NCBI GenBank assembly: GCA_017936985.1
Contig: JAGBEM010000228.1
Coordinates: 1 to 5,519 of the forward strand
DNA from: Oscillospiraceae bacterium
Lineage (GTDB): Bacteria; Bacillota_A; Clostridia; Oscillospirales; Oscillospiraceae
DNA length: 5,519 bases
Reading direction: 5' to 3'
In this document: positions 2-5,519 of the stretch, in pieces
Layout of the letters: every line of letters begins with the position of its first letter
Numbering within the stretch: the first letter of the stretch is position 1
The notes under the pieces: model-generated
What the model was told of the DNA's origin: nothing
Database searches by the model: none
What the model saw: the letters and a program-made list of their open reading frames with translations, nothing else
Made by a program: the position numbers and the translations under genes

Positions 2-235
2 CCTGCGGGGCAGCCGTCGGATGTGAAAACAGGTCCGGCGGTGATCCGCTGCACGGTGCAGGGCGATACGGCTCGGGAATATTCTGTGAAGATTCTGAAA
101 GTTTATCCCCATTCGGGGACATCGGGCAGAAATATGCTGCTGCAGATCACCGACCCGGCGCTGTTGGAAGTCACCGGCGGCATCGTACAGGGAATGGGAG
201 TGAGTTATAATAAGGACAACCAATGGAACCCGTAG
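2..235 (+). pseudogene. spoIVB: SpoIVB peptidase (S55), fragment cut at the catalytic serine by element insertion
   Basis: SpoIVB is the serine protease sent from the forespore into the intermembrane space, where it triggers pro-sigma-K processing late in sporulation. The frame is open at the window start and reads GPAVIRCTVQGD, then LLQITDPALLE and TGGIVQGM, which I recognise as the end of the S55 protease domain (family TGGIVQGMSGSPI). The Asp of ITDP (152-154) fits catalytic Asp363 of the B. subtilis enzyme. Fifteen codons on, where Ser378 should be, is Gly (197-199). From there similarity stops: eleven unrelated residues follow (VSYNKDNQWNP), then TAG at 233-235. No SGSPI coding follows in any frame nearby, so this is not a simple frameshift. 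The upstream part of the gene lies outside the window, and the 3' part is expected beyond the far end of the element. An internal GTG at 23 is not the true start. Identity is recalled from family motifs, not searched; I am fairly sure of it. Confidence 0.85.
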
Positions 236-249
236 CTTGCAAAGGGTTC
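196..249. other. Presumed left attachment site region with a short inverted repeat
   Basis: This is the junction between the spoIVB fragment and the element. Just inside lies a six-base inverted repeat, GAACCC (226-231) and GGGTTC (244-249), separated by 12 bases. Recombinase or excisionase sites are often built like this, but one short repeat can occur by chance. I infer the site from the gene break alone; the partner half-site is not in the window. Confidence 0.4.
206..211 (+). promoter_or_regulatory. Perfect TATAAT -10-like box just inside the element end
   Basis: TATAAT matches the sigma-A -10 consensus exactly. In the integrated form the -35 position 17 bases upstream falls in spoIVB and reads TCGTAC, which is poor. 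In the excised circle this -35 position would come from the other element end, so a promoter could form only on circularisation. Transcription would then start near 218, leaving the small frame at 223 almost leaderless. Speculative. Confidence 0.2.
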
Positions 250-396
250 TGGTGCCAGTCCCTATTTTCAATGACCTCGAGAATAGTTTGCATCAAGCGC
301 AGATGCAATTGGACGGAATCGCCGGAAGTCTGTGATCGAGATGGTTGGGCGAAATCTTCGAAAGGAGTCTACTTACTCAACGAACTTAATAAATAG
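223..396 (+). CDS. Possible small cysteine-containing protein, 57 residues, unrecognised
   Basis: ATG at 223 is preceded by AAGGA (212-216) at a six-base gap, a credible ribosome binding site, and the frame runs to TAG at 394-396. The product has five cysteines (C6, C11, C23, C28, C37) and a basic patch IKRRC, with no membrane segment and no family I recognise. Against it: a 57-codon frame is not rare by chance. The frame starting at 204 is also open to TGA at 333-335 and reads a helical-looking string (NDLENSLHQAQMQLDGIAG) without a good start codon, so the stretch may be a gene remnant or non-coding. It is the only candidate gene between the element end and the terminator at 434. Confidence 0.22.
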   Translation: MEPVACKGFWCQSLFSMTSRIVCIKRRCNWTESPEVCDRDGWAKSSKGVYLLNELNK

Positions 397-413
397 TATA
401 AGCAACCTTATAA

Positions 414-432
414 AATCCTGCCACACAGGATT
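414..432 (+). promoter_or_regulatory. Short hairpin immediately before the terminator at 434
   Basis: AATCCTG (414-420) pairs perfectly with CAGGATT (426-432) around the five-base loop CCACA. It sits one base before a strong terminator hairpin, so the two form a tandem pair in the leader of the next gene. It could be a protein- or ribosome-responsive element in an attenuator, or a spacer. No known riboswitch class is recognised. Confidence 0.35.
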
Positions 433-433
433 G

Positions 434-471
434 GCACCGGACGGTATCTGTCACACCGTTCGGTGCTTTTT
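434..471 (+). terminator. Strong intrinsic terminator upstream of the DUF5348 gene
   Basis: GCACCGGACGGT (434-445) pairs with ACCGTTCGGTGC (455-466), a 12-base stem with one G-T wobble and a nine-base loop, followed by TTTTT (467-471). It ends only about a dozen bases before the ribosome binding site of the gene starting at 492, and there is no clear promoter in between. That gene would therefore depend on read-through or regulated antitermination. Confidence 0.8.
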
Positions 472-491
472 CATATAGAATGGAGGCAATT

Positions 492-704
492 ATGAAAACA
501 GGAACCCTAATCCCTCAACGCGGCACAGATCGTATGGACATTCGCTTCGACCTCTATGACTACCACGGCGGGCTTCATTGCGGCGAAACCCTTGATGTGA
601 AGATCAGCGGAAGGTGGGTCCCTACCCGGATTGAAAAGGGTAAGGATTGGTACCTTGTGGGTGTTGATGTCGATGACTTGGTTGGTTTGATCGTCCGAAT
701 ATAA
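492..704 (+). CDS. DUF5348 family small protein
   Basis: This 70-residue protein has no known function. The order MKTGTLIPQ, DIRFDLYDYHGGLHCGE, GRWVPTRIE, WYLVG and a closing GLIVRI is the pattern I know from DUF5348 proteins, which are common in conjugative elements of gut Clostridia. Its length is about that of the family, so it appears complete. I chose ATG 492 over the in-frame ATG at 480 because GGAGG (483-487) lies four to five bases ahead of 492 and would fall inside the longer version. The product is acidic at its C-terminal half (VDVDD), soluble, with no membrane segment and one cysteine. It sits alone between two terminators (434-471 and 717-746). Family assignment is from memory of the motif, with good confidence; a role in the element is unknown. 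Confidence 0.85.
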   Translation: MKTGTLIPQRGTDRMDIRFDLYDYHGGLHCGETLDVKISGRWVPTRIEKGKDWYLVGVDVDDLVGLIVRI

Positions 705-775: not shown

Positions 776-1837
776 ATGAAGTGCCTGCGCAAGTATGATT
801 GGGTCAAACTGCCCCGGAGCATTCCGGATATGGGCAAAGGGCGAATGGGATACTGGGCCAAGCTGGCATCTCGCGCAGCCTTTCGCAAAGGCAACAGCAA
901 GTACTGCGGCCACACCAACCCTGTAACACCAGGAATGTGGGCAGGCGGTGCTGTCGGTCTAAAGAGCATTCTGGGCGTCAGAAGCCGAGCAGCGGCTTTG
1001 GATATCCTGGAGCAGCTTGCGGCACTAGGATATGTGAAGTATTCGCTTGACCCAGTAACCAAAAAGCTTACTTATGAAATCACCGACTGGGTTATCAAGT
1101 GCTCGGGTGCCGAGTGCATGGACGGAGCAGTATATACCACAGAAGGCTTTGGATTTCTTTGTTTGCCCAGAAACATTACAGAACGGCTCTTTGCGCAAAA
1201 GCAAACCTTCGAGGAAGCAGATGCATGGCTCGATCTGTGGTGCCATACCACATTCGAGGACAGAGGAAATGCGTTTTCCTTTCTCTCCCCTGTTATTCAA
1301 TACGGCAAATTCGGTGCCGTGCTAACCTTAGAAACCCTGGGACAGCGCTGGGGTTGGGAAAAGACTAAGGTGTGGAGATTCTTTAAAAAGCATGAGGATG
1401 TCTTCTCTCTACACCGTCTACCCAGCTCCTATGGCTGTCTCATTTTCAATACGCAATACCCCACAGGAGTTGATATCTCCCTTCCTTCACAGGACGAAAT
1501 TATGAGTATACTGACCGAAATACTTATAAGCGGCAAATATGAGTACAAGGAGAACAGTGAGAATGCTAAGGTGAATCATATGGTCGCTTGGCATAGCGCA
1601 AAGGTCATTGTAGCTCGACAGGGGCAGTCTGCCCATATGGAGGCAGAACCCCGCGTTGCACCTTTTGCCCCTATAACGCGTGCGTATATTTCTCATGGTT
1701 GGAACTGTAAGAATTGTAGGAACTGTCAGTATGCCTGCCGGGGTACGTTAACTGGTCCACCCGTCTTTCGTGAAATAACAGACAGGATACGAGGACCTTG
1801 CATACACAATCGGCAAGATATGAGGAGGTTTCACTAA
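776..1837 (+). CDS. Unrecognised protein with two likely winged-helix regions and a C-terminal cysteine cluster
   Basis: The product has 353 residues and I do not recognise a named family. Start 776 is preferred to the in-frame ATG at 734: AAGGAGG (761-767) stands eight bases before it, and 734 lies inside the upstream terminator. Residues about 60-106 look like a winged helix: an SRAAALDILEQLAALGYV helix pair, then a basic TKKLTYEI wing. Residues about 178-235 hold a second one, LTLETLGQRWGWEKTKVWRF, matching the LAxRWGWSxxKVxRFL pattern of helix-turn-helix domains in phage and plasmid replication or regulatory proteins. Near the end C311, C314, C317 and C321 form C-x2-C-x2-C-x3-C, with C342 further on. 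This spacing is that of a ferredoxin [4Fe-4S] loop, without the usual following Pro, and could also bind zinc. Its stop overlaps the next start (TAATG), so the two genes are coupled. Likely a DNA-binding regulator or replication-associated protein (inference). Confidence 0.8.
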   Translation: MKCLRKYDWVKLPRSIPDMGKGRMGYWAKLASRAAFRKGNSKYCGHTNPVTPGMWAGGAVGLKSILGVRSRAAALDILEQLAALGYVKYSLDPVTKKLTYEITDWVIKCSGAECMDGAVYTTEGFGFLCLPRNITERLFAQKQTFEEADAWLDLWCHTTFEDRGNAFSFLSPVIQYGKFGAVLTLETLGQRWGWEKTKVWRFFKKHEDVFSLHRLPSSYGCLIFNTQYPTGVDISLPSQDEIMSILTEILISGKYEYKENSENAKVNHMVAWHSAKVIVARQGQSAHMEAEPRVAPFAPITRAYISHGWNCKNCRNCQYACRGTLTGPPVFREITDRIRGPCIHNRQDMRRFH

Positions 1838-2463
1838 TGCCACGAAAAAGAATAACCTTGTATGACGCTCATGAGAAGCGTATTTTGGAACAAGCATCGG
1901 CCTTTGCCGAGTTTTTGACTATAAACGGAACAATTGGAGACGCACGGATAGAGGATGAAAAGCTGCGGCAAGTAAAGCAGACCGCAGCAAAGAAGGCTTA
2001 TCACAATACCAAGGTCCTGTTGGAACAGTATCGGACCATTGTTTGGGCCTTGGAGTGTGTTCCCGGTGAGCTGGCTGAGGAACTAAAGCTGTCCACAAAG
2101 AACATCGATGAGCTGGTTAGTAGGATTGATTTTGAAATGGCAATGGAGAACAAGCGGCTTGAGGGTCGGCTGAACACCATTATCAAGACCAGGATCCTCC
2201 TCGAACGGGTTCAGGATGCTTTGATGGTCGTCCGCAAAAAACCCAATGTTGGAGAACTCCTTTATCGCCTGGTTTACGAGGCGTTTATTGATCCCAAGGA
2301 AAGGCCCTCGCACGAATTGATCAGCAGAGCTCAGCTGGCACCGAGGACCTACTACCGGATGCGATCAGAAGCTATTACGATCATGTCAATTCGCCTGTGG
2401 TCTGCCCCTCCAGGAGAAATCGACAACTGGATCGAAATCCTTACTATGATGGAGCAAATGTAA
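1837..2463 (+). CDS. Helix-turn-helix regulator, ArpU/RinA-like sigma-factor-type protein
   Basis: The product has 208 residues. ATG 1837 is chosen over the ATG at 1798 because GAGGAGG (1822-1828) lies eight bases ahead, and the start overlaps the stop of the preceding gene by one base, indicating translational coupling. The protein is highly charged and mostly helical, with no membrane segment. A central part (about residues 52-110) contains AYHNTKVLLEQYRTIVWAL, then long amphipathic helices to 130. The C-terminus (about 157-188) reads SRAQLAPRTYYRMRSEAIT, the helix-turn-helix signature of ArpU/RinA-type late-gene activators of phages, in which a TYYR motif enters the recognition helix. This layout is common in regulator-like proteins of clostridial conjugative elements. 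It lies directly upstream of the repeat array and promoter of the transfer genes, so it is the best candidate to bind there (inference). The family link is by motif only. Confidence 0.85.
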   Translation: MPRKRITLYDAHEKRILEQASAFAEFLTINGTIGDARIEDEKLRQVKQTAAKKAYHNTKVLLEQYRTIVWALECVPGELAEELKLSTKNIDELVSRIDFEMAMENKRLEGRLNTIIKTRILLERVQDALMVVRKKPNVGELLYRLVYEAFIDPKERPSHELISRAQLAPRTYYRMRSEAITIMSIRLWSAPPGEIDNWIEILTMMEQM

Positions 2464-2687: not shown

Positions 2688-3056
2688 ATGGTCAAACAAC
2701 TCACCAAAGGCAAAGAGCGGCTGACGAATGCGTACTGGTCTATGGTTGGTATGGCATCTGTCGCGATGCTGTCTCTGCAGCCGGTGATGGCGGACACGAT
2801 CTGGGATCGTTTCTCCACGATCCTTCAGGACATTTATGGTCAGGTCGTTGCCATCAGCACCATCGTTGCAGTTACAGTTGGTGCCATTGCGCTGCTGATC
2901 CGGATGATCTCCAGAAATCAGCGTGCGGTGGAAGAAGCAACCCAGTGGCTTAAGAGAATCGTGGTTACCTGGATTATCCTGAACTCTCTCGGCTTCATCG
3001 TTGCTTATCTGCAGCCCCTCATTGCCGGCGGTAGCTATTCCCCTGGCACCACCTAA
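2688..3056 (+). CDS. VirB2/TrbC-like type IV secretion pilin or membrane subunit
   Basis: The precursor has 122 residues. A basic N-terminus (KQLTKGKERL) is followed by a hydrophobic stretch at about 16-35 ending in PVMA-D, a plausible signal peptidase site, which leaves a mature protein of about 87 residues. Two membrane helices follow, about 53-71 (VVAISTIVAVTVGAIALLI) and 91-108 (IVVTWIILNSLGFIVAYL), separated by a charged loop (RMISRNQRAVEEATQWLKR). The C-terminus is short and Gly/Pro-rich. Signal peptide, two helices and a charged cytoplasmic loop are the layout of VirB2/TrbC pilins. Such proteins in Gram-positive elements are assumed to form part of the conjugation channel or its surface extension. 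It is the first gene after the regulated promoter, and the VirB6-like gene follows 36 bases on, as in transfer operons. Residue identity to known pilins is low by eye, so the call rests on topology and context. Confidence 0.75.
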   Translation: MVKQLTKGKERLTNAYWSMVGMASVAMLSLQPVMADTIWDRFSTILQDIYGQVVAISTIVAVTVGAIALLIRMISRNQRAVEEATQWLKRIVVTWIILNSLGFIVAYLQPLIAGGSYSPGTT

Positions 3057-3092: not shown

Positions 3093-5519
3093 ATGCTTGA
3101 CTGGATATTTGAAGGCATCGTCGGTTGGGTAGCAAGCATCGTATCTCAAGCAATGGATGCAGTTTCTGCTCTGTTCCTTGAGGCGCTCGGCACCGATATG
3201 ACAGCCATGGAGGAATACTTTCCCTTCGTAACCAAAGCCTTTGACGTGATACAGGTCACAGCCTGGGCGATCTTGATATTGATCACCGTATGGCAACTGT
3301 TTCGAGCATTCGGAGGACCAATTACAGAAGCGGAAAACCCGTGGCATCTATTAATCCGTGGCGCGCTGTTTGCATTCCTCATCGGCTATGCCAAACCCAT
3401 ATTCCTAACGTGCTTGTCGATTGCCCGAGCGCCGTACACAGCACTGATGGATATCACAATGACTGGCTCGGATTTCACCTTTGCCGGTATTGAGCAAGCA
3501 CTTACCAATGGCCTAACCTCAATCATAGCGGTGGCCAGTGTGGTGGGTATGATCCTGATTCTGATCCTGGAGATCGCATTGGGTTGGAACTACTTCAAGC
3601 TCCTTCTGGAGACGGTTGAACGGTACATCGTAGTTGGTGTTCTGTGCTACACATCTCCTCTGGCGTTCTGCATGGGTGCATCCAAGGCAACAAACCCTGT
3701 GTTCAAGTCTTGGTGTCGCATGGTTGGTTCCCAACTCTTGCTGCTGGTGATGAATGTTTGGTTCCTGAGAGGCTTTGCTTCCTCTATGGGCCAATACATC
3801 GCCAACGGTGGCGCTCTTACGACAGGAAAAGGTAGCATCTTCCTTTGGCTGTTCTGCGCGATCGCCTATCTGAAGACTGCACAGAAGTTTGACAGTTATT
3901 TGGGAGCGATCGGTTTGAATGTAGCTCAGACCGGCAGTGGCATGGGAATGGAGCTGTTGATGGCAGCTCGTGTAATCACCGGTGTCGGCGGCGGTATGAC
4001 TCGCAGTGCCGGCAGTATGTTTGGCAGAGCAGGCGGTAGCGTTGCAACCGGAACCGGTGCAGCTGCAGCTGGCTTTGCGCAGGGCTTTGCAAACAGATTT
4101 AGTCCCAACTCTTATGTCCGCGATGCTGTCGTTCAAGGCGGTCAACGGATGGGCTTCGGAGGAGGCGCCGGCTTTATGGCTCGTGCCTTCGGTGGTATTG
4201 CCGCAAGAAATGGTGCTACTTTGAACAGTAACTCCATTTCTTCTGTGGCAACCAGAACGCCTAACGCATCCGGCACCATCGCCGGTGACATTGCAGATCG
4301 CAGTTTGGGCAACTACATGCCTCAGATGCAGGGCTTCCAGCTTCAGGGCACGCAGATTACAGGCGGACACATCAGTACAACGGCGATTTCTCCCGATGGT
4401 AAGCAATCTGCTGTTGATATGTACAGCGCTGCTCAGTATGAAAAGCCTGACGCGCCTCACAGCGTGGTTACTGCATCCGACGGAAGTCAGTGGTATCAGA
4501 TGGCCAGCGGCGAAGGCCGTGGTGCTTTCTACGATGCTCCTGTATTCAACGGTATGTCTGCAGATGTGCCTCAGGGTACCGGATCTCCTGTTGGCGACGG
4601 TACACCTATGGATCCTGCTGTTGGAGGTATGCCCACCACAGGTGGCGACACAACCCAGTTGGATCCTGGCGGAGTCGATGGAACACCAATCGGTGTCTCC
4701 TCCGACACACCTCAGATCGCTGGAGACCCTGGAGATATTTCTGTTCCCGGTACCACAGTTGTGGCTGGTGGCGCAGAAGTGATCGATGGTACGCCCATGG
4801 ATGTCAATATACCTGACGGCGGTGTTGTGGCTGCCGGTGTTGCTGCGGGTGAAGATTTCCCCGAGGCTCCCCAAGGCGGAGGCTTTGTTGCTGGTGTTCC
4901 TTACCACGGCGAAGAGCCTATGGATGGTTCTGGCGGGTATGGTCCTGCAGACGGAGGCTCTGGATTCTATTCCGAGGCACCTCTGGTTGCAGCAACCTTC
5001 CCCAGCGCACCCGAAGGTACCGCACTGCGCACAGTGGATGAAGGTGTTATTGAAGCAAGTAGCCCGGATGGCGGAAACACACTATGGTACAACAGCGCCT
5101 ATTTCCAGGAGCCCGATGCGCCTCACTCTGTCATGCAGTCTGCCAACGGAGTCGACTGGTATGCTATGCAGCAACACGCGGATGTTCCCCAGTTTGAAAC
5201 TGGAGACGCAGCCGAAAGCTACAACCAGGCAACCTTCCAGCAGTTCATGCCCGGCTACGGTGAGCAGGTCTATCAGGTGGATGGATCCCATCGTCAGGAC
5301 GGACACTTTGAAGTCCGCAACGAGGATGGATCCGGCACCCGATTCTATGACACAGCCCAGTACGCTGCGCCTCGCGGAGACTACCAAGTCTTTGAAGATG
5401 CACGCGGAAGTCAGTGGTATGCAATCCGTGGAGAAGCAGCTGTGGAGCGCCGACCCGTCTATGAGCAAGGACGTGCGGTCTATGACGGTGATAAGCTTCG
5501 TACCGAGACGGTGGAAACC
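3093..5519 (+). CDS. trbL: VirB6/TrbL-like conjugal transfer channel protein with a long repeat-bearing tail, C-terminus outside the window
   Basis: The frame is open from ATG 3093 to the last base (809 codons, no stop). GGAGGTGA (3079-3086) precedes the start by six bases. The role expected is the polytopic inner-membrane core of the mating channel (VirB6/TrbL family, as in Tn1549/CTn-type ICEs). Residues 1-265 show about six membrane helices, roughly at 52-70, 86-105, 141-164, 178-196, 212-228 and 247-262, with the conserved-looking RYIVVGVLCYTSPLAFCMG stretch at 177-195. Residues about 280-345 are the Gly/Ala/Met-rich segment usual after the last helix. From about 346 on the protein is soluble, acidic, poor in Lys and free of Cys, with three copies of a ~45-residue repeat (near 426-474, 652-697, 737-780) and a Gly/Pro/Asp-rich linker with DGTPMD motifs. 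Proteins of this family that I know of end far sooner, so the tail is unusual. Confidence 0.85.
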   Translation, partial: MLDWIFEGIVGWVASIVSQAMDAVSALFLEALGTDMTAMEEYFPFVTKAFDVIQVTAWAILILITVWQLFRAFGGPITEAENPWHLLIRGALFAFLIGYAKPIFLTCLSIARAPYTALMDITMTGSDFTFAGIEQALTNGLTSIIAVASVVGMILILILEIALGWNYFKLLLETVERYIVVGVLCYTSPLAFCMGASKATNPVFKSWCRMVGSQLLLLVMNVWFLRGFASSMGQYIANGGALTTGKGSIFLWLFCAIAYLKTAQKFDSYLGAIGLNVAQTGSGMGMELLMAARVITGVGGGMTRSAGSMFGRAGGSVATGTGAAAAGFAQGFANRFSPNSYVRDAVVQGGQRMGFGGGAGFMARAFGGIAARNGATLNSNSISSVATRTPNASGTIAGDIADRSLGNYMPQMQGFQLQGTQITGGHISTTAISPDGKQSAVDMYSAAQYEKPDAPHSVVTASDGSQWYQMASGEGRGAFYDAPVFNGMSADVPQGTGSPVGDGTPMDPAVGGMPTTGGDTTQLDPGGVDGTPIGVSSDTPQIAGDPGDISVPGTTVVAGGAEVIDGTPMDVNIPDGGVVAAGVAAGEDFPEAPQGGGFVAGVPYHGEEPMDGSGGYGPADGGSGFYSEAPLVAATFPSAPEGTALRTVDEGVIEASSPDGGNTLWYNSAYFQEPDAPHSVMQSANGVDWYAMQQHADVPQFETGDAAESYNQATFQQFMPGYGEQVYQVDGSHRQDGHFEVRNEDGSGTRFYDTAQYAAPRGDYQVFEDARGSQWYAIRGEAAVERRPVYEQGRAVYDGDKLRTETVET
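4368..5438 (+). repeat. Three protein-level repeats of a DG...Y...WY module in the tail of the VirB6-like protein
   Basis: Copies span about 4368-4514, 5046-5183 and 5301-5438. They align as SPDGKQSAVDMYSAAQYEKP, SPDGGNTLWYNSAYFQEP and NEDGSGTRFYDTAQYAAP. Each is followed by a stretch with V and then SDGSQWYQM, SANGVDWYAM or DARGSQWYAI. Copies 1 and 2 share PDAPHSV. Copies 1 and 3 share 16 identical bases, CGGAAGTCAGTGGTAT (4481-4496 and 5405-5420). The module looks like a small beta-rich fold with an invariant WY pair. More copies may follow past the window end. Confidence 0.7.
4596..4928 (+). repeat. Gly/Pro/Asp-rich linker with recurring DGTPMD motif
   Basis: DGTPMD is encoded at 4596-4613 and 4785-4802, DGTPI at 4677-4691 and EEPMDG near 4911-4928. 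The linker between repeat copies 1 and 2 is rich in Gly, Pro, Asp, Thr and Val, lacks Cys and nearly lacks Lys, and is predicted disordered. It probably acts as a flexible spacer. Confidence 0.45.

Follow-up and report, generated by a model that had tools for sequence, protein, structure and literature searches.

A conjugative-type integrative element very probably splits the forespore protease gene spoIVB at its catalytic serine codon

The stretch of DNA analysed here (the window; 5,519 nucleotides from an Oscillospiraceae bacterium) very probably contains the attL junction of a conjugative-type integrative element that was inserted in the sporulation gene spoIVB by a large serine recombinase. 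SpoIVB is a signalling protease made in the forespore, and in B. subtilis its catalytic residues are Asp363 and Ser378. In the proposed mechanism, a circular attP with arms TTGTCC... and ...GGGACAA about a TG core would recombine with an attB located within spoIVB, at the ATG that precedes the serine codon. The split SpoIVB would then end at this Met plus 12 element codons and leave the catalytic Ser at the far (attR) end. Because recombination moves the serine codon to the attR end, the split protein would be without its catalytic residue, and the interrupted gene is presumably inactive; the block of sigma-K activation predicted earlier would be a possible consequence. A preliminary description of the window had already suggested that a conjugative-type element splits spoIVB at the position of the catalytic serine, a suggestion upheld by seven split junctions at this one point (window, G001, G297, G441, G657, G687, and L149).

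The host part of spoIVB occupies positions 2..196 of the forward strand, the only part readable in the window since the upstream part lies beyond its edge, and encodes the peptidase S55 domain as far as TGGIVQGM. The frame 2-235 gives matches to Pfam Peptidase_S55 (PF05580, E 3.4e-17, profile positions 114-176 of 210) as well as to TIGR02860 spore_IV_B (E 4.3e-18), the latter with 65.5 bits against a whole-protein cut-off of 305, because the window holds only a fragment of spoIVB. The match breaks off where intact relatives read MSGSP; past the junction these relatives follow the pattern MSG(S/A)PI(I/L)Q(D/N)G...GYGIFI(E/D/G/S)NML. An Asp codon in the motif ITDP (GAC, 152..154, forward strand), which we take to be catalytic by B. 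subtilis SpoIVB, lies 15 codons upstream of the junction. Codon 194-196 is ATG (Met) and codon 197-199 is GGA, which occupies the position of the serine codon, since intact relatives continue with MSG(S/A)PI there. The Asp codon, the GGA codon, and the spacing of 15 codons from 152 to 197 that had been reported for the window were confirmed in its sequence. Beyond the junction, 12 element-encoded codons (GVSYNKDNQWNP) are fused to SpoIVB and followed by a TAG stop (197..235, forward strand); their translation is identical in G441 and reads GVSYNRDNQVNP in L001. Relatives with an uninterrupted spoIVB reading MSGSP represent the empty site, and the comparison of hosts supports the earlier notion that the target stretch is conserved between them. 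The site seems to be chosen for its conserved GGIVQGMSGSP codons.

The break had been placed exactly at the serine codon. This position was confirmed, but the crossover itself is better placed one step upstream, in the dinucleotide TG (195..196, forward strand) inside the preceding Met codon. In the left junctions the base ahead of TG is A (C in L149) and element sequence follows, while in the right junctions this base is A, G, T, or C and the host serine codon follows. Since the flanks of attL and attR differ on either side of TG, the exchange is placed within it, and the serine codon would therefore be the first host codon past the core and move intact to the other side. When attP was rebuilt from the two ends in G297, its dyad was best centred on TG, with 15 of 28 positions paired against 11 for the next centre, and G584 holds an unsplit arm pair carrying a TG core. 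From these alignments, TG is the putative crossover core.

The left end of the element starts with the P' arm of the attachment site (GGAGTGAGTTATAATAAGGACAACCA; 197..222, forward strand), which is common to L001, L149, G297, and G441. It is followed by a conserved and apparently non-coding leader (236..475, forward strand). In the alignment of the window, L001, and L149 over positions 194-475 (three sequences, 282 window bases) the mean column identity is 87%, and the lengths of the indels in the leader are not multiples of three. A search of Rfam with 236-475 gave no credible match; the leader may be a structured RNA. All genes downstream lie on the forward strand. They encode a DUF5348 protein (480..704; PF17295, E 1.6e-22), a 353-residue protein without family match that is 80% identical in L001 and 57-79% identical in seven other loci (776..1837), and, according to the list of open reading frames and Pfam, a 221-residue product whose 208 C-terminal residues have no family match (1798..2463). 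The conjugation proteins of the window give only weak matches, under the curated cut-offs: a pilin-like, TrbC/VirB2-like protein (2688..3056; PF04956, E 0.0049) and a TrbL/VirB6-like protein that runs off the window (3093..5519; PF19597, E 2e-5). The window contains no recombinase gene. A group II intron with a GTGAG start at the junction was considered and rejected, as Rfam gave no match and conjugation-type genes follow downstream. Searches of IMG/VR with the window protein and with the spoIVB fragment found no relatives. Relatives of the element were also seen in genome G002 (L002 and L003), with left ends that align poorly before position ~417.

The same junction occurs in other genomes. 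Scanning the 353-residue protein (776-1834) against one genome for each of 84,980 species gave eight loci, among them L001, a contig of the metagenome-assembled genome of Oscillospiraceae bacterium SIG479 (G001), where the junction recurs within a spoIVB of different sequence (62% identity over 77 residues). With a 295-base query across the junction, two matches were found among 400 genomes of this family, G001 and G297. The P' arm pattern with up to three mismatches gave eight matches in 394 genomes of the order and none for the reversed-pattern control. Four of the eight are split spoIVB genes (G001, G441, G657, and G687), three are arms behind an intact spoIVB (G584, G750, and G648), and one lies inside another reading frame (G738). 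The IMG/VR contig L149 starts with 13 host-like bases and then shows the junction, with CTG instead of ATG. In G441, G657, and G687 both halves of spoIVB were found on separate contigs and an intact copy was not found. For G001 (1.7 Mb), the matching 3' half was not found; this genome has only a worn 3' fragment on another contig, truncated on both sides (PLIIQNGNLVGALAHVCVNDPTSI; L017, 1500-1570, minus strand).

An assembly chimera or contig-end artefact is extremely improbable. The contigs of the window and L001 are short, and coverage of L001 is low (1.2), but the same junction recurs in independent assemblies (L001, G297, G441, G657, G687, and L149), one of them a single-contig genome, and in hosts with very different SpoIVB, which contradicts an assembly join at the point of divergence. 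Among the six hosts with enough sequence, pairwise SpoIVB identity ranges from 27 to 62% over 15 pairs. Between the window and G441, the element is equal at 105 of 105 bases, after which the G441 contig ends, but the 52 SpoIVB residues that precede the junction show 33% identity in an ungapped, position-by-position comparison. Because the element is identical where SpoIVB is so different, the junctions reflect transfer into one site and not decay, misassembly, or an inherited old insertion; a single old insertion passed down to all hosts was rejected on the same ground.

In G297, a single contig of 3,156,307 bp, both ends can be seen together. The only spoIVB matches in this genome are at C1:1092036-1092548 (profile positions 2-176) and 1187235-1187345 (174-210), 94.7 kb apart on the same strand, with no other copy, and a gene with a Spo0A_C domain follows the second half. 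Just inside the left end of the element are genes for ParA and ParB. Its conjugation genes encode a coupling protein (T4SS-DNA_transf, 165.7 bits), a TraG P-loop protein, and TrbL_4, all above the cut-offs and TrbL_4 just so. The right end carries three serine recombinase genes in tandem, the last of which stops 63 bases short of the right-junction ATG, where the arm reads AGTTGTCCCATATTGACATCAACC. The spoIVB 3' part that was to be expected at the far end of the element was found behind a recombinase gene in G297, L136, L137, and G657.

The enzyme is likely a large serine recombinase, the last of the three in tandem. The recombinases of G297 and L149 match the Resolvase, Recombinase, and zinc-ribbon domains of Pfam, the zinc-ribbon just under the cut-off in both. 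With the last recombinase of G297 as query, the sole IMG/VR match was L136 (49%), and the best among 473 phage-collection records was L137 (50%); each of these lies within a row of three recombinase genes, and behind each come an arm like that of G297 and then a spoIVB 3' end. L149 joins the leader of the window to three such genes, which lie beside the left junction on the opposite strand; the closest one is 50% identical to that of G297. For this reason the recombinase clade of G297 and L149 can be ascribed, by sequence comparison, to the element of the window as its putative integration enzyme. In a tree of 44 recombinase sequences, G297, L136, L137, and L149 form one clade (100/100). Outside the tree, a 52% identical recombinase gene is present at the right end of G657, and only a 30% identical recombinase piece, ~1 kb off, at that of G687. 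More tandem recombinase triples were seen at L107, L116, L125, L130, and L135 (G002:C3 and C7), with no spoIVB end beside them in the stretches fetched.

What the insertion does to its host can be read in more than one way. Probably, though with considerable doubt, it is a plain disruption, in which a conserved attB is used and the host lives with a broken spoIVB, either without sporulation or because SpoIVB is dispensable. Splits at this site are sparse, as is expected if insertion is costly: in a survey of 400 family genomes, of which 344 had a spoIVB match and 39 with several, partial, or weak matches were re-searched, two had a split gene and no intact copy (G001 and G297), and four more had the 3' end only. 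Inserts that carry a gene tail, described below, likewise imply selection for the whole gene. On the other hand, insertion is recurrent, and SpoIVA, present in 13 of 15 genomes tested (10 of 11 with the second type of split described below and one of two cassette hosts), is kept in both split hosts tested (G297 and G001), although a recent insertion would look alike.

The retention of SpoIVA in these two hosts would also suit a regulated switch, in which excision during sporulation restores spoIVB in the forespore and the element persists by re-integration or as a partitioned circle. We consider such a switch unlikely. The ParA and ParB genes of G297 and the published precedents of spsM, gerE, sigK, and yabG speak for it. 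G297 also has sigK-like parts ~11 kb apart around a serine recombinase and, by eye, restriction-modification-like genes (C1:2532000-2546500, L210). This sigK split scores below the cut-off. It is tentative, because the sigma-K profile also picks up a wide range of sigma factors, among them 11 of 14 controls; no match exceeds the cut-off, either in the controls or in the 15 genomes of interest. Against the switch, SpoIVB acts in the forespore, and because the chromosome of the forespore is inherited, excision would risk loss of the element. In the mother-cell cases the spore genome is not rearranged, according to the main text of the published account (PMC4191935).

Some inserts carry a replacement 3' end, which may be an answer to this paradox of a forespore gene, as the gene is not lost. 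Among the split-type left ends examined no replacement 3' end was present. A switch that flips gene tails by inversion was also considered and is left as an idea: a search around the split left ends for another spoIVB 3' end found none (best E 0.06) in the window, L001, L149, 20 kb each of G297 and G657, and short stretches of G687 and G441. An arm scan of six of the seven junctions (all except G441, with 105 bases beyond the junction) showed an extra arm in G297 only.

A second insertion site lies ~20 codons downstream, at GAVTHV, where spoIVB is parted in 10 of the 344 genomes (G068, G158, G222, G238, G263, G294, G319, G369, G374, and G379; L086-L105). Where the parts share one contig, the gap is 27.5 kb (G238) or 16.8 kb (G158). 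Left ends read TGATACC in six of nine visible cases, with G003 included, and TAATACC in G319; G374 and G222 differ, and in G379 the contig ends there. Of the ten right ends shown, six have GG(T/C)ATCA. Recombinases of a distant clade end beside the second site in three cases flagged by script, and one G222 recombinase joins on a 100/100 branch. G003 (5' part, with a second full copy elsewhere in the metagenome-assembled genome) and G378 (3' part only) resemble these cases.

Displaced gene ends point to a further use of the first site. An extra or lone spoIVB 3' end that starts at profile position 175-176 was found in 15 of the 344 family genomes, all from the 39 re-searched. In seven (G094, G146, G392, G199, G251, G100, and G176; among L068-L085 and L203) the same contig also carries an intact spoIVB, 0.4-3.6 kb upstream, and in four (G366, G320, G067, and G165) the intact gene is on another contig; in the other four (G301, G308, G339, and G027) an intact copy was not found. 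Upstream sequence covers 12 of the 15, leaving out G308 and G339, where the displaced end starts at the contig end, and G165. In 11 of these 12 the arm before TG and the serine codon is of the TTG(T/C)C type, typically TTGTCCCTAATGACAATCACTC, and that of G027 is worn; the arm in G320 resembles that of the large elements. The site is an attR-like hybrid of P arm and spoIVB 3' end.

The seven same-contig loci all have a recombinase-type arm, and one or two genes lie between the intact gene and the displaced end. These genes differ from locus to locus: a short-chain dehydrogenase/reductase (SDR) gene plus a weak TetR match in G094, a MerR-TipAS gene as the only gene in G392, DUF1275 in G199, a cyclase in G176, a 953-residue protein whose sole match is to DUF6650 over 25 residues, together with a small, unscanned partner, in G146, and genes of no assigned family in G251 and G100 (the latter unscanned). 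PADLOC gave no match for five of the cassette proteins. The exact arm pattern had no match in IMG/VR; allowing up to three mismatches over its 25 bases, 11 sites were found in 10 of 400 genomes and none with the control. Among these sites, no tail follows in G154 and at the second site of G067, the tail of G302 stops after SGSPIVQ, and that of G073 is worn. Two consecutive arms are present in G154, each preceded by a gene. The first of them has a score of 17.5, whereas 71 shuffles reach no more than 13.7, and a shortened tail lies behind it.

Comparison between loci gives further detail on these inserts. G392 and G154 have SpoIVB proteins that are 52% identical, yet the MerR-TipAS gene of the former and the second cassette gene of the latter share 84% identity. 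In G011 the site is empty and an EamA transporter gene starts at +123 after spoIVB; an EamA-like gene, 80-81% identical, follows the displaced end in G392, where the MerR cassette intervenes, and in G366, where the intact spoIVB is on a different contig and all that is visible of a TipAS-like gene is its end. Of the eight cassette loci compared with the downstream genes of the survey, G100 (~35%), G146 (55%, to part of a TipAS gene), and G251 (60%, with the third gene downstream) have weaker links, G094 only a 32% TetR-type match, and G199 and G176 none. That survey covered 60 spoIVB regions, of which 59 contain the motif (one of the 59 was taken from the wrong side), and found a Spo0A-like gene in 25, 0.9-4.9 kb off in five of the 25.

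We propose, tentatively, that a serine-recombinase gene-cassette system uses spoIVB as its platform in this order, with arrays that grow at the gene-proximal end as in integrons; this may well be so, but it falls short of being probable. Each cassette would bring a 3' end to replace that of spoIVB, together with a terminator-like repeat, one or two genes, and a P arm. By entering at the catalytic-serine codon, it would make spoIVB whole again and displace the former 3' end downstream, and the large elements that split spoIVB would use the same site with arms of a like kind. The cassettes would be moved by the same or a related recombinase. It is conceivable, if rather doubtful, that the displaced-tail loci are instead remnants of large insertions that were repaired by homologous recombination with foreign spoIVB DNA. 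The tails are repeats of ~110 bp that could recombine, and in the seven same-contig loci no recombinase gene could be made out in the interval from the intact gene to the tail (by eye, with a domain search for six of their proteins). However, repair of this kind fits poorly with one kind of arm ending different genes, with a MerR-TipAS gene that is more alike in G392 and G154 than the host SpoIVB, and with the empty site of G011 followed by the same downstream gene.

Two further observations concern this region. Behind the whole spoIVB of G584 (L235 3690-3830), G750 (L239 2980-3100), and G648 (L240, reverse complement, 5775-5890) lies one arm pair without the TG core together with a second, inverted attP-like site, which is whole in G584, whereas in G750 and G648 it is fused with an attB-like half; these paired sites suggest possible further DNA inversions behind a restored gene. 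In L075 (G002:C3, 2318-5600), an intact spoIVB is followed by Lrp, M20 peptidase, and aminotransferase-like genes and then by a shortened spoIVB 3' end with no clear arm.

With these junctions, spoIVB joins the sporulation genes split by mobile DNA, and the target motif is common to hosts with otherwise very different SpoIVB. The question of how an element in a forespore gene avoids its own loss or the sterility of its host becomes testable, and inserts with a replacement gene end would be one answer visible in genomes. If the cassettes move as units, they would constitute an integron-like gene-capture system built on serine recombinases. Recombinases with matched attB and attP are also candidate tools for DNA integration.

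Sporulation gene-intervening elements are known from several genes, namely skin (sigK), SPbeta (spsM), gin (gerE), and yin (yabG). Like the spoIVB element, these are serine-recombinase elements that split a sporulation gene at one site; unlike them, the spoIVB element targets a forespore gene, and in G297 it spans ~95 kb and carries conjugation genes. The skin-type arrangement, with both gene halves at the two ends and no intact copy, is present on one contig in G297 and on separate contigs in G441, G657, and G687. In gin of B. cereus ATCC 10987, as described in the main text of its report, there are also three serine recombinase genes, two in an operon and the third apart, whereas those of the spoIVB element are three in tandem (PMC5595907). 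The elements of Durrant et al. (2022; PMC10083194), in the main text of that paper, likewise have an enzyme with Resolvase, Recombinase, and zinc-ribbon domains and an attB in a conserved coding stretch; other preferred target genes are named there, and the word sporulation occurs once, within the title of a reference. The main text of a study of spoIVB expression describes no insertion (PMC5894183). Within the main-text parts, without supplements, of the open-licence PMC literature searched, no element in spoIVB is described, and in that literature the element is of a known kind with a target not met before. The cassettes find their nearest likeness in another class of systems. Integrons hold gene cassettes with attC sites and use the tyrosine integrase IntI. 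Like integron cassettes, those at spoIVB are small, with one or two genes and a recombination-type site apiece, and they sit at one platform, two of them in a row in G154; unlike them, they have serine-recombinase-type arms, and each putative cassette carries a copy of the 3' end of the host gene.
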